From Fodinisporobacter ferrooxydans (GTDB taxonomy: Bacteria > Bacillota > Bacilli > Tumebacillales > MYW30-H2): a stretch of DNA of 64,000 bases. The notes beneath the pieces are model-generated. The model worked only from the letters and a program-made list of their open reading frames with translations, ran no database searches and was not told the DNA's origin. The stretch is taken from assembly GCF_022818495.1 (NCBI RefSeq), contig NZ_CP089291.1, forward strand, positions 1,169,536 to 1,233,535. Direction: 5' to 3'. Positions within the stretch are counted from its first letter, which is position 1. Each line of letters begins with the position of its first letter. The position numbers were made by a program, and so were the translations under genes. This document shows positions 7,633 to 59,237 of the stretch, one piece after another.

Positions 7633-7663
7633 GTGCAGTTCAAAAAGTGGTTATTGAACATCC
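7633..7663. repeat. Internally deleted relic of the MITE-like repeat
   Basis: GTTCAAAAAGTGGTTA is joined directly to TTGAACATCC, so both outer ends of the repeat found in full at 9248-9405 and 39411-39568 are present but the interior of about 120 bp is missing. Confidence 0.55.
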
Positions 7664-7720
7664 TTTAAAGAAAACTTGATTCCGTCAAGCTTTTCTAACA
7701 ATACCAATATACTTTCCGAT

Positions 7721-8318: not shown

Positions 8319-8349
8319 CTATCTGTATATAAATTTTGAGGTGAACAAA

Positions 8350-9123
8350 ATGCTTTTAGAAAAAATGGAACGGATTAACCGCCTTGTCCAAAACACCGTT
8401 TCCGAGTCGGTAAATTTTGTGGAAGTATCAAAAATTCTTAGTGAAGTATTGCAAGCGAACGTGTATGTTGTCGATGAACTAGGAGACATTCTTGGATATG
8501 GGATGGCCGAATACGCATTGACAGCGGAATGGGAACAAATCATGAATGTGGATAAAAAATTTCCCGAGAAATTTAATCAGGCTTTGCTCGATCTGAATCG
8601 TTTGACGGCAAATCTTGAAGACAAGTCCCCGTTTCTGGTTTTTTCCGCAGAAGAAAATGCAGTTTTCCAGGAAAAGTGTATTACAGTTGCTCCGATTATC
8701 GGTGGCGGCAGACGGATCGGAACACTCGTTTGTGCACGGGAAAACCGCCAATTCAACGAAGACGATCTCGTATTGATCGAATACAGTTCAACAATTGTCG
8801 CTATGGAGATCTTGCGTCAAAAGCATGAGTTGCAACAAGAACAAATGAAGCAGCGCATGATGGCTAGTCTTGCTGTTGATGCATTATCATTTTCGGAATC
8901 CATTGCTATTCAGCGTATTTTTGAAGTTATCGAAAACGATGAAGGAATCGTGGTGGCAAGCCAAATTGCGGACCGCGACAATTTGACTCGCTCGGTCTTT
9001 GTCAATGCTTTGCGTAAGCTGCAAAGTGCTGGCGTGATTGAAAGCCGTTCACTTGGAATGAAAGGAACGTTTATTAAAATCATTAATCCTTACATTCGTG
9101 AACACATTCAAAAAAGCAGCTAA
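8350..9123 (+). CDS. codY: GTP- and branched-chain amino acid-responsive regulator CodY
   Basis: Global nutritional repressor that binds DNA when charged with GTP and isoleucine/leucine/valine. N-terminal GAF-type sensing domain (residues 1 to about 155) with the conserved start KMERINRLVQ, then a linker helix and a C-terminal winged helix with ASQIADRDNLTRSVFVNALRK. 257 residues from the ATG at 8350, which has GAGGTG six bases upstream; the GTG at 8341 is part of that ribosome site. codY normally follows xerC-hslV-hslU in Bacilli; here it stands alone with ylqG and ylqH downstream, inserted between htrA and walJ. A CodY box in its leader suggests autorepression. Confidence 0.97.
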   Translation: MLLEKMERINRLVQNTVSESVNFVEVSKILSEVLQANVYVVDELGDILGYGMAEYALTAEWEQIMNVDKKFPEKFNQALLDLNRLTANLEDKSPFLVFSAEENAVFQEKCITVAPIIGGGRRIGTLVCARENRQFNEDDLVLIEYSSTIVAMEILRQKHELQQEQMKQRMMASLAVDALSFSESIAIQRIFEVIENDEGIVVASQIADRDNLTRSVFVNALRKLQSAGVIESRSLGMKGTFIKIINPYIREHIQKSS

Positions 9124-9247
9124 TTCCTTATAGTGCGTGTTTAAAAGTGCGGACAGTGTCACCACAAATTTGAAGGTAGAGTCTGGTGCAGCGAAAATCT
9201 GTCCGATTCTGCCTTCTTATTTTGCCGTTCTTTTATTTTCTTCTTTA
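9124..9247. other. Intergenic region after codY with a partial repeat end
   Basis: TATAGTGCGTGTT at 9130-9142 is the same left boundary as the MITE-like repeat that follows at 9248, but continues differently. CGGACAG (about 9152) and CTGTCCG (about 9205) can pair and are followed by a T-rich stretch, so the region may terminate codY transcription. Confidence 0.35.
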
Positions 9248-9405
9248 TAGTGCGTGTTCAAAAAGTGATTAAGTAAGACACAAGGAGTGCGAAGTCGAAG
9301 CACGAAAAGGCGACGGAGTGTACGTGTTTGGTACATGAGTAAATCTCTTTGGGATTCGGCAAAGCAATCCGCCGTGGAGTTTTGACTACTTTTTGAACAT
9401 CCTCT
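9248..9405. mobile_element. MITE-like repeat, full copy A
   Basis: About 157 bp with imperfect terminal inverted repeats: left GTGTTCAAAAAGTGATTA, right (reverse complement) ATGTTCAAAAAGTAGTCA. The interior carries small hairpins (GTGC/GCAC, TGTAC/GTACA). A second copy at 39411-39568 is nearly identical, and partial copies occur at 7633 and 40014. No coding capacity of its own; a 70-codon frame on the minus strand that spans it is an artefact present in both copies. Confidence 0.75.
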
Positions 9406-9457
9406 ATTAAATCCATGTTACAATGGTTTGAAACTGACAGGATCGGGAAGTGAATAA

Positions 9458-11035
9458 ATGAACGTTCCAATGTATATCAACCAGGCAATCAGCCATTTTA
9501 CAAATATCTCTTCTACGGCCATTGAGTTGCGTCCCGGTCAGATTTTGCAAGGTACCGTTTTAAAATTGCTGTCCGACAAAATGGCAACTGTGCAACTTGG
9601 GTCCTTATTGGTCACCGCGCGATTAGAAGCGGCTTTAGAACCTGGTCAAAACATTTGGCTGCAAGTTCAGCCGGAACAAAATCCGATTACTCTGCGAATT
9701 ATTCCGAAGCCATCGAATGCAAAGACGGCCCAAAATCAAGCAGCGGGCGGCACGTTATCCGATCTTGCCAAAGCCGTTTCCATACCTTTAACAAAAAATC
9801 AATTGGCGTTTCTCGGATCACTGTTTGAATATCAGATTCCAGTATCGACAGAGCTTATGAAAGCATTACCGGAAATCACACAGAAATTTGGCGCTTCCGA
9901 AGATCTGATTGAAGTTTTGCAAATCATAACAAAGAAGGGTCTGCCGTTAACAGAGAATACAATTCGGGGAATACGCGCGTTTCAAAAAAACGAAAATGTT
10001 TCTGCGCAAATGGATCATCTTTTACAAAACATGCAACAGTTCTCCTCAGCGCCGGACGGGCAAGATTCGATTGGAAAACAGTTGCGATCCTATGTAAACC
10101 AGTTGGTCGCGCAGTTGCAATCCATAAAGGAAACTCTCCATGGGATCACAAATCAATGGGATAACCAAAGGAACCGCAGCGGCGCAGAACAGGAATTTGA
10201 AAATCTCGCTTCAGAAACGCCCACGGCAGAAGTCCCAGCGAACGCTACAGTGCGTCCAACATCGTTGACAGGTAACGATTGGCCGAAGCAAACTGCCAAA
10301 GCGGCAAATGCCGCCTTCCCAATCCAGTTCGATCCAAGAGGCACTCAAAATACATCAAAGGCCGCTTCACGGGAATCTTTGCCCAATCAACAGTTGAACG
10401 ATCCGCAACCAATCCTTCGTTTGCTGCAACAATTCGGCATGGAGCATGAGCGGCAAATTCTGCAGGCATCTATGACGAATCCGTCTTCTTTGGCACAGCA
10501 TACCGGATCTGTAAAAGCAGCAATACTGCAATTGTTGCAAAGTCCTGAGGCAGGTCATTTGCCCCATGCACTCAAACAAGATATGCAGCAGCTTGTCGAT
10601 CATATTACCGGACAACAACTGATGGCAAGTGACAATACTCCAACTGCCTTTGTCCAATATACCGTGCAATTTCCAATGCCGGGTCTGCAGCGAGAGAATG
10701 CATGGATCCATATTGAATCCAAGAAAAAAGGCGAGAAAGGGATTGATAAAGACAATTGCCGGTTGTTTTTTTATTTAACAATGGAACACATGGGCGAAAC
10801 GATCCTTGATGTATCCATTATCAATACAATACTGACAGTGACTTTATATAATAACCAGACATGGATTCCGGGCGTAGTACAGCATTTCGAAAAACAACTA
10901 AGACAAACGTTAGCCGATCATGGCTATGTGCTTTCAAATATAAAAATTGCGCCTTTACCCGCATCGACAACTTCTTTTTCCCAATCTCCGCCTGACAGCA
11001 TAACCAATTACAAAGGAGTGGATATACGTATATGA
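9458..11035 (+). CDS. ylqG: YlqG-like protein with flagellar hook-length control domain
   Basis: 525 residues. The N-terminal section (about 20-80) has a beta-rich GQILQGTVLKLL...LEPGQNIWLQVQ pattern typical of FliK/YlqG N-terminal domains; the middle is low-complexity and rich in Gln, Asn, Ala and Ser; the C-terminal section (about 410-510) resembles the Flg_hook domain, with LFFYLTMEHMGETILDVSI and a helix QHFEKQLRQTLADHGY. FliK measures hook or needle length; the job of the YlqG paralogue, which is outside flagellar operons, is not known. The start is the ATG at 9458 with GGGAAGTG upstream. The stop overlaps the ylqH start (ATGA), as in other Bacilli. Confidence 0.8.
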   Translation: MNVPMYINQAISHFTNISSTAIELRPGQILQGTVLKLLSDKMATVQLGSLLVTARLEAALEPGQNIWLQVQPEQNPITLRIIPKPSNAKTAQNQAAGGTLSDLAKAVSIPLTKNQLAFLGSLFEYQIPVSTELMKALPEITQKFGASEDLIEVLQIITKKGLPLTENTIRGIRAFQKNENVSAQMDHLLQNMQQFSSAPDGQDSIGKQLRSYVNQLVAQLQSIKETLHGITNQWDNQRNRSGAEQEFENLASETPTAEVPANATVRPTSLTGNDWPKQTAKAANAAFPIQFDPRGTQNTSKAASRESLPNQQLNDPQPILRLLQQFGMEHERQILQASMTNPSSLAQHTGSVKAAILQLLQSPEAGHLPHALKQDMQQLVDHITGQQLMASDNTPTAFVQYTVQFPMPGLQRENAWIHIESKKKGEKGIDKDNCRLFFYLTMEHMGETILDVSIINTILTVTLYNNQTWIPGVVQHFEKQLRQTLADHGYVLSNIKIAPLPASTTSFSQSPPDSITNYKGVDIRI

Positions 11036-39404: not shown

Positions 39405-39410
39405 GATTAA

Positions 39411-39568
39411 TAGTGCGTGTTCAAAAAGTGGTTAAGTAAGACACAAGGAGTGCGAAGCCGAAGCACGAAAAGGCGACGGAGTGTACGTGTTTGGTACATG
39501 AGTAAGCCTTTTTGGGATTCGGCAAAGCAATCCGCCGTGGAGTTTTGACTACTTTTTGAACATCCTCT
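39411..39568. mobile_element. MITE-like repeat, full copy B
   Basis: Same orientation and length as copy A at 9248-9405, with only a few differences (GTGGTTA for GTGATTA, GAAGCCGAAG for GAAGTCGAAG, AAGCCTTTTTGG for AAATCTCTTTGG). Ends with CTTTTTGAACATCCTC. Terminal inverted repeats TGTTCAAAAAGT are intact. Confidence 0.75.
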
Positions 39569-39677
39569 AATAAAGTCTCACTAAGTGCTTTAGTACTTGA
39601 GTCTAGACTTATCCCTGCCATTATATTGAAAAGTTCAAGTAAAAACAATCGAAATTGCAATGTTTTCATTTCTTCGT

Positions 39678-40013: not shown

Positions 40014-40050
40014 GAGTGCGTGTTCAAAAAGTGGTTAAGTAAGACACAAT
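40014..40050. repeat. Left-end fragment of the MITE-like repeat, copy C
   Basis: GAGTGCGTGTTCAAAAAGTG and GTTAAGTAAGACACAA are the first 36 bases of the repeat; the sequence then diverges into the end of the oxidoreductase gene. Confidence 0.7.
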
Positions 40051-57881: not shown

Positions 57882-59237
57882 ATGGATCGCCGCGCACAAG
57901 AATTGTGGGAAAACACGTTAGCGGCTTTAGAAAACCGCTTAAGCAAGCCAAGTTATGAAACATGGTTAAAAGCCACAAAAGCACATTCTTTCGATGGACA
58001 AAGCTTATTTATTCAAGCGCCTAATGAATTCGTCAGGGACTGGCTGGATTCACACTATACTTCGATTATTGAAGAGATGTTAAAACAATTGACCAAAAAA
58101 AATCTTTCCGTACGATTTACCATCCCTCAATTCCCGAATGAAGATGCGCATGTTGCCCAAAAACCAGCGGAAAACCAACCGGAACTACCGACTGCAGCCG
58201 CCGAAGAATTTGTACCAACCATGTTAAATCCAAAATATCGATTTGAAACCTTCGTGATCGGCGCTGGAAACCGATTTGCTCACGCAGCCAGCCTTGCAGT
58301 TGCAGAAGCGCCGGCAAAAGCATACAATCCTTTATTTATTTACGGTGGGGTAGGTCTTGGAAAAACACACCTCATGCATGCGATTGGTCATTATGTATTA
58401 CAGCAAAATCCATCTTCAAAGGTTTTATATATTTCTTCCGAAAAATTCACGAACGAATTTATTACGGCCATTATGAATAATAAAGGTGCGGATTTCCGTA
58501 ATAAATATAGAAATATTGACGTTCTGTTAATTGACGATATTCAATTTTTGGCTGGAAAAGAACAAACACAAGAAGAGTTTTTTCATACATTCAACGCATT
58601 GCATGATGCCGAAAAACAAATTATTATTTCCAGCGACCGCCCGCCAAAAGAGATACCTACACTCGAAGATCGCTTGCGTTCCCGATTTGAATGGGGATTA
58701 ACCACAGATATTCAAATCCCTGATTTAGAAACCCGTATTGCGATTCTCTATAAAAAAGCAAAAGCGGATGGGCTGGACATTCCTGATGAAGTCATTATGT
58801 ATATAGCCAATAAGATCGATACAAATATTCGAGAGCTGGAAGGCGCTTTAATTCGAGTTGTTGCATACTCATCGTTAACCAATCGGGATATGTCGATGGA
58901 ATTGGCAGAAGAAGCACTTAGAGACATCATTTCACCCAGCAAGACAAAAATCATTACAATCGCAGATATTCAAAAAATAGTCGGGGAACATTTCAGTTTA
59001 AAAATTGAGGATTTCAAAGCAAAAAAACGTACGAAAGCCATTGCATTCCCGCGTCAAATTGCGATGTATCTGGCACGAGAAATAACCGATTGTTCACTTC
59101 CGAAAATCGGAAGCGAGTTTGGCGGAAGAGATCATACGACAGTCATTCATGCACATGAAAAGATTACAAAAGAAATCACTCAAGATTTCTCACTCCGTCA
59201 AACGGTTGAACATCTGAAAGAAAAAATTACGCAATAA
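57882..59237 (+). CDS. dnaA: Chromosomal replication initiator DnaA
   Basis: 451 residues. Domain I (1-80, [18 protein letters not shown]), linker, AAA+ domain III with Walker A GGVGLGKT (155-162), Walker B LLIDD (215-219), and domain IV DNA-binding signature [24 protein letters not shown] lies 11 bases before the ATG. Flanked by DnaA-box clusters on both sides. Confidence 0.98.

Follow-up and report, generated by a model that had tools for sequence, protein, structure and literature searches.

The window analysed here is a stretch of 64,000 nucleotides of the Fodinisporobacter ferrooxydans genome, in which codY (8341-9123) lies about 49 kb from dnaA (57882-59234). Just downstream of codY lies copy A of a short repeat, and a second full copy, B, together with several fragments, is found in the same window:

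7633..7665, + strand: probable decayed mini-element of about 33 bp, left end fused to right end, boundary approximate
9133..9146, + strand: short decayed left-end fragment, directly after codY
9245..9249: left flank of copy A, TTATA; it differs from the right flank TATTA, thus no clean target duplication
9250..9404, + strand: MITE copy A, 155 bp, left end GTGCG, right end CCTC, 96.8% identity to the 60-copy consensus
9314..9342, + strand: conserved hairpin tip of copy A, CGGAGTGTAC-loop-GTACATGAGTA; genome pattern match G000:C1:1178850-1178874
9405..9409: right flank of copy A, TATTA
39408..39412: left target duplication of copy B, TAATA, 5 bp
39413..39567, + strand: MITE copy B, 155 bp, same sequence as the family consensus
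39477..39505, + strand: conserved hairpin tip of copy B; genome pattern match G000:C1:1209013-1209037
39568..39572: right target duplication of copy B, TAATA, 5 bp
40016..40049, + strand: solo left-end fragment of the family (40015-40049, 35 bp, by blast with copy A), breaking off after GACACAA

The initial annotation had placed a repeat of 157 bp at 9248-9405. The element itself stands, while its ends had to be corrected by up to 2 bp, as comparison of the flanks and target duplications of copies A and B set the exact length at 155 bp. When copy A was aligned to the window by blast, copy B was recovered with 95.8% identity over 168 bp (E = 1.6e-75), and weaker fragments were detected besides copy B and the solo left end. 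The two near-identical copies are thus real, although to describe them as agreeing almost base for base was slightly strong given 7 differences in 168 bp. Terminal inverted repeats are present as described, with a length of about 20-24 bp and imperfect pairing (GTGCGTGTTCAAAAAGTGG / GAGGATGTTCAAAAAGTAG). Likewise, no plausible gene lies in the element, in line with the claimed lack of coding capacity: among mechanically predicted ORFs of at least 80 aa in the window only one, of 82 aa, overlaps a copy, namely copy B.

The host genome (4,856,687 bp, one contig) was then searched with the ends and with the hairpin tip. Allowing at most 2 mismatches, there were 150 matches to the left end GTGCGTGTTCAAAAAGT and 146 to the right end AGAGGATGTTCAAAAAGT, compared to 3 and 1 for the respective reversed-pattern controls. 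The tip pattern GGAGYRTACN{4,10}GTACRTGAG gave 84 matches and its reversed control none. These numbers describe a large dispersed family and not two loci, so that confinement to these loci, which together with the lack of a same-end transposon had been named as a refuting outcome, was not observed. Among the end matches listed (100 per end), at least 60 pairs show exactly equal spacing, and others form mini-elements of 40-66 bp.

Length and flanks were examined for 70 copies, a part of the genome's total. Exactly 155 bp were found in 60 of these, and 53 of the 60 are bordered by a perfect 5-bp duplication; copy A is among the 7 that are not. Thus the duplication, proposed as a check, was seen at copy B and at most full-length copies, but not at copy A. 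Copies of other length carry a perfect 5-bp duplication in 6 of 10 cases. The target starts with T in 70/70 copies on both sides and ends with A in 66/70; additionally, C tends to precede it and G to follow it, so that the target looks like CTNNNAG. Such a narrow target could also be expected from placement by a site-specific recombination system in place of a DDE transposase, and there are element-beside-element insertions with one common 5-bp site (L016, L174; L030) that would fit this idea. However, 16 different sequences are represented among the 59 perfect duplications, as is typical of staggered transposition, and the ends are inverted repeats. We therefore regard site-specific recombination as very unlikely.

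The 60 full-length copies have a mean identity of 98.4% to the consensus and 97.0% among pairs, and 31 pairs are identical. From this similarity it is plausible that the copies moved recently, as had been claimed. For 30 copies, 1.5 kb of flanking sequence on each side was analysed; 26 of them are located between ORFs, and the other 4 overlap mechanically predicted ORFs of 101-199 aa.

Mini-copies of 38-64 bp, which do not contain the core, also carry duplications. If these minis jump as minis, the core is dispensable for transposition. On the other hand, short copies in the genome have internal-deletion junctions that recur at several loci and lie at short direct repeats, so that internal deletion after insertion is an alternative origin of the minis. 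One of these junctions is also present in another family of the order (L099). As read from the sequences, the recurrent junctions suggest recurrent slippage across the hairpin.

Two further repeats accompany the family. The first, about 53 bp long (CTTATGTGGCC...TTTTCGTA, with two small hairpins), is a sister module inserted in the terminal repeat after GTTCAAAA and with CAAAA on both sides. It was found at either end of several copies and gave 23 matches, some of them partial (L071-L093 in this genome, e.g. G000:C1:1429810-1429880); it looks like a secondary insertion which then spread with the element end. The second is another MITE-like family of 161 bp with ends GAGGCTGTCCCAAAAG, located at L268:4133-4293 (G000:C1:1733632-1733792), where it adjoins a copy of the first family across a 5-bp TTTTA. 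Relatives of this 161-bp family are found on two Alicyclobacillus fastidiosus plasmids.

Among Bacilli, the element as a whole was detected by blast in 2 of 61 genomes, its own included. The end motif alone was found in 69 of 398 Bacilli genomes and 27 of 145 genera (at most 1 mismatch). The inverted repeats of the family can be written as G[AT]G..TGTTCAAAAAG or G[AT]GNNTGTTCAAAAAG, and the ends seen in Bacilli are GAGGNTGTTC with TNNNA. Many of the Bacilli loci that were opened contain elements of about 40-320 bp whose ends are those of the family and whose interiors differ; others were single end matches, probably by chance. Of 74 readings from other Bacilli with both ends, a count in which matches in both orientations enter twice, 35 show a perfect 5-bp duplication. 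In one draft assembly (G252), many contigs begin about 60-150 bp inside an element end (e.g. C14:110, C17:79, C18:96). Thus, assemblies are broken up by the repeats, whose number may be underestimated in this genome.

One locus (L134) contains two matches to the Bacillaceae-1 RNA (RF01690, above cut-off) at 1538-1605 and 1732-1798, which lie in opposite arms of a 318-bp element with family ends and a TTTAA duplication. RF01690 itself was found in 82 of 398 genomes, often with 12 or more candidates. As a general part of the element it was rejected: among 30 further RF01690 loci, two of which are incomplete stretches, only one has an end-like site (2 mismatches) within about 400 bp.

A transposase located elsewhere in the genome had been expected to act in trans on the family. 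To find an autonomous partner with the same ends, several searches were carried out. In the host genome, pairing of ends at IS distance among the matches listed (100 per end) gave none, nor did 40 loci around ends that have no close partner, which are a part of such ends. Variant ends (GNGNNTGTTCAAAAB) led to no autonomous element either, and a domain scan of 10 ORFs at the variant-end loci returned 0 transposase domains. The same holds for all 53 exact end positions in another genome (G279) and for 9 loci of two more (G004 and G005). In 41 viral stretches, the only end pair within 4 kb belonged to a 329-bp element, and no autonomous element was seen. Plasmids and phages gave end matches, and the four that were opened, one of them an almost unannotated record, showed no autonomous element. 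Lastly, a search for elements of 600-3500 bp with TNNNA duplication and inverted ends matching in 13/16 positions yielded 0 in 299 sequences (1,135,573 bases). A same-end transposase was therefore not found in the loci, viral stretches, plasmids and phages searched, which is not proof of absence. Mobilisation in trans is inferred from the ends and the duplications; GAG ends together with a T...A target are features that we take to hint at the substrate of an IS5-like transposase. Apart from an autonomous element with the same ends, which was not found in the searches above, the element is a MITE by every feature examined: inverted repeats, duplications, short length, many copies and no transposase gene.

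The interior hairpins noted by the initial annotation were evaluated by folding. With RNA parameters, copy B folds over its entire length on the left-to-right strand, with -67.9 kcal/mol compared to a mean of -38.5 in shuffled sequences (z -9.0), while the opposite strand folds more weakly (z -5.7). DNA parameters gave z -6.9 and -3.8 for the two strands, respectively. Covariation was analysed on eight elements, taken from the host genome and from five further genomes of Bacilli. Overall, 95.4% of the cells in this alignment are paired and 24 of the 46 pairs changed on both sides; none of 500 shuffles reached values as high on any of five measures, and sliding the 3' side by 1-3 columns reduced pairing to only 34-48%. 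With its low z value and covarying stems, the interior is thus structured, as had been proposed.

While the stems vary, certain elements of the fold hardly do. The lower internal loop TAAGA/AGTT is the same in 8/8 Bacilli sequences, and the internal loop GGA/GA beneath the tip is nearly constant (3/8 rows have CTGAG instead of CGGAG). The tip itself is nearly constant as well and reads about CGGAGYRTAC-loop-GTACRTGAG(N)A, i.e. C-GGA-GYRTAC-loop-GTACRT-GA-G-N-A; hits of a covariance model show further variation in the tip. Two possible explanations of the tip were dropped. A kink-turn has a three-base bulge, and the bulge here is of one base. A short ORF starting from the ATG in the tip does not keep a constant length in other families, as judged by eye.

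We then considered whether RNA or DNA is the folded form. In the Bacilli alignment, whose structure is RNA-based, mismatches of the G-U type outnumber A-C by 35 to 2, which at first argued for an RNA strand. This argument was withdrawn because the structure came from RNA energies, so that the ratio is inflated by RNA folding. With symmetric scoring across phyla, G-T and A-C mismatches in the arms are about equal (71 vs 78), which fits DNA as well as RNA as the folded form.

A related explanation is that the hairpin persists because its RNA is useful to the host, for example as a stabiliser of mRNA 3' ends, an RNase III site, a terminator or a small RNA, the spread of copies being secondary. 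The strong, strand-asymmetric fold and the covarying stems would agree with it, and so would a core-bearing hairpin in E. coli that lies between the pheM leader and pheS (L449:230-460). Regulation of mRNA by transcribed MITE hairpins has also been proposed, as stated in PMC2229807. However, orientation to genes shows no bias, with 10 copies in the same and 11 in the opposite direction (hand count of the 21 copies between co-directional ORFs in 30 loci), and across phyla the arms do not prefer G-U, as described above. Taken together, these two observations do not indicate a role in host mRNA. Stems and loops of the 60 resident copies also drift equally (0.97 changes per site in paired and 0.96 in unpaired columns), and no terminator-like site was found in 9150-9500 around copy A. 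As for a conserved RNA, an outcome which the initial annotation had named against itself, the best match of copy A among the curated families of Rfam 15 scored 15.6 bits against a gathering score of 41.2, and the copy B locus (L003) gave no Rfam match up to E 1; nevertheless, a conserved folded core does exist. Overall, an RNA kept for the host seems unlikely to us.

To extend the analysis beyond close relatives, the covariance model of the eight Bacilli sequences was applied to the class, with matches in 40 of 398 genomes, the weakest of them close to the limit of E 0.001. Next, the tip pattern was scanned in one genome per species. This gave at least 118 stretches, which are not a random sample. 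Among the matches listed, the tip occurs in Mesorhizobium, Agrobacterium, Klebsiella, Xanthomonas, Chlorobium, Nitrospirae, Deltaproteobacteria, Listeria, Clostridia and Paenibacillus. From 121 core instances, 113 with 60 bases on both sides were retained, of which 38 remained after dereplication and 33 with an arm score of at least 13. The base before the tip and the N after TGAG, a pair that is not imposed by the pattern, form Watson-Crick pairs of three types in 112/113 instances (57 expected). After dereplication this closing pair is formed in 37/38, whereas the highest number reached in 20,000 shuffles was 26. Complementarity between the 60-base arms surpasses the 99th percentile of shuffled arms in 88/113 instances and in 29/38 after dereplication. 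On the tip strand of the 33 elements, arm mismatches of the G-A type are far more frequent than C-T (108 vs 11), with more G-A in 30 elements and more C-T in 2.

A slightly looser tip pattern detected 1-93 copies in each of 28 tip-selected genomes, with 0 reversed-control matches in all 28. For example, there are 84 copies in the host genome, 42 in Mesorhizobium hawassense, 34 in Listeria fleischmannii, 18 in Chlorobium ferrooxidans and 1 in Xanthomonas phaseoli. Of 16 core-selected loci, 13 were recognised by the full-length Bacilli model with E values up to 0.0014, and in 11 cases the match spanned the entire model; this result is partly circular as the loci were selected by the tip. The three loci missed were one from Chlorobium, one from Mogibacterium and the E. 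coli locus. In E. coli, a related query matches 5375 of 5426 genomes, with a median of 4 places.

Could the tip be a convergent or chance motif, i.e. pattern matches in unrelated palindromes? The scan is pattern-based and does not sample at random, and in 25 of the 113 matches the arms do not exceed the 99th percentile of shuffles. Against this, the motif is present in many copies within single genomes while reversed controls are zero, its free positions pair in 37 of 38 elements, and the Bacilli model recognises most core-selected loci, with the circularity mentioned. Chance is thus a highly improbable origin of the shared tip. Another concern is that the covariation of the arms could be a by-product of palindrome correction, that is template switching or conversion between arms, and not of selection on the fold. 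Replication can homogenise the arms of a palindrome and thereby generate paired changes in which selection takes no part. Such correction should, however, erase internal loops, whereas both the tip and the G-A loops are retained on one strand in different phyla; moreover, the tip is conserved in sequence and not just palindromic. We therefore consider palindrome correction quite unlikely as the source of the covariation.

Not every core-bearing repeat resembles the element of the window. Some proteobacterial loci have apparent CTAG- or TTAG-like flanks (by eye), unlike the TNNNA of Bacilli. In Listeria fleischmannii, 14 core-bearing repeats (L451-L464) have about 30 bp of left flank in common, while their right flanks are unrelated and most contain terminator-like hairpins; no duplication is evident by eye. 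With a common left flank and no evident duplication, the Listeria repeats indicate that not all core-bearing repeats are MITEs of this kind.

Considering these observations as a whole, we think it probable that the element is a 155-bp non-autonomous MITE which is moved by a DDE transposase in trans and whose folded strand is required for its own propagation. In this mechanism, a DDE-type transposase supplied in trans would bind the inverted repeats of about 20-24 bp and would make cuts staggered by 5 bp at a CTNNNAG-like site, leaving the TNNNA duplications; here the duplications and ends are observed and the enzyme is putative. The left-to-right strand is predicted to form one long hairpin, whose stems vary and yet pair and whose G-A-rich loops and tip stay near constant. 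Palindromic repeats from other phyla carry the same tip, although some of them have other ends, as far as the selected loci and the inspection of ends by eye can tell. The folded strand, as ssDNA or as RNA, would be needed for propagation of the element itself. After insertion, single copies would drift freely while the lineage as a whole would remain constrained. As the fold is constrained across families, stems and loops of resident copies drift alike and orientation is random, selection appears to act on spreading more than on use by the host. We thus favour that the core is kept for the element's own propagation.

The MITE family as such is ordinary; the unexpected part is the cross-phylum core. 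On elements with different terminal repeats and targets, the core would be a module recognised as single strand. We see roughly even chances that these repeats form one cross-phylum superfamily of mobile imperfect palindromes, defined by the folded tip (XC-GGA-GYGUAC-loop-GUACRU-GA-GX'-A) and by G-A loops on the same strand and not by the ends, with the core as a module read single-stranded by a conserved factor of the host or the element, and with ERIC possibly as a divergent member. Bacterial MITE-like hairpins have mostly been described by group, each separately named, and a tip common to repeats of Bacilli, Rhizobiales, Xanthomonas, Chlorobium, Nitrospirae and Listeria would unite many such groups. 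If true, it predicts that a conserved factor recognises the folded single strand, and it would bear on how gene-less repeats spread and why they are hairpin-shaped.

Lastly, the family was compared to known systems. The ERIC/IRU element of enterobacteria (127 bp) is likewise MITE-like, an imperfect palindrome comparable in size. An E. coli ERIC copy, located with what we take to be the ERIC core sequence, has at its tip a GA/GA internal loop next to a G-U pair, as in the family here. The ERIC tip itself differs (GGAGCTTAC...GTAAGTGAC) and does not have the covarying XC/GX' closing pairs. Its termini are TA, with a 7-bp TIR (PMC2229807). Membership in ERIC was rejected, as the family has TNNNA duplications and other ends, and only features of the fold are in common.

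The bcr1 repeat of the Bacillus cereus group is 147-167 bp long with a predicted common stem-loop (PMC2267715) and has mobile features, a TTTAT motif and a restriction to that group (PMC6542083). In size, predicted stem-loop and mobile features it is like the family here, from which it is set apart by description, with TTTAT in place of TNNNA. Membership was rejected by description, since TTTAT does not occur among the 59 perfect duplications. Correia/NEMIS elements of Neisseria are MITEs of 107 or 155 bp with TIRs, a long hairpin and TA termini, as summarised in PMC2229807; compared by description, size, TIRs and hairpin are alike and the TA termini differ. REP/BIME units are palindromes of 20-40 bp with a GTAG or CGTC tag (PMC3733652), and membership was rejected for a unit of 155 bp with TIR and duplication.

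BoxC is an interspersed, intergenic structured repeat of many bacteria with a 37-nt G/C-rich intrastrand triplex motif, and in E. coli K-12 it is not associated with mobile elements, according to PMC4666352. Like the family here it is an interspersed structured repeat, and from its description we judged it to be a different sequence; on the same description (PMC4666352), BoxC was dropped as a name for the core-bearing relative in E. coli. When eight core-bearing loci were scanned, the hairpins of two were overlapped by a match to the Xanthomonas small RNA sX9 (RF02228 in Rfam). Both matches fall short of the gathering score of 44 (38.3 and 33.4) and lie on the strand opposite to the core. In the open-access literature, of which coverage was partial so that absence is weak evidence, no treatment of the end sequence or the tip was found. 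The core may be noted by specialists under other names; compared with the systems described above, the family of the window is a new MITE family.
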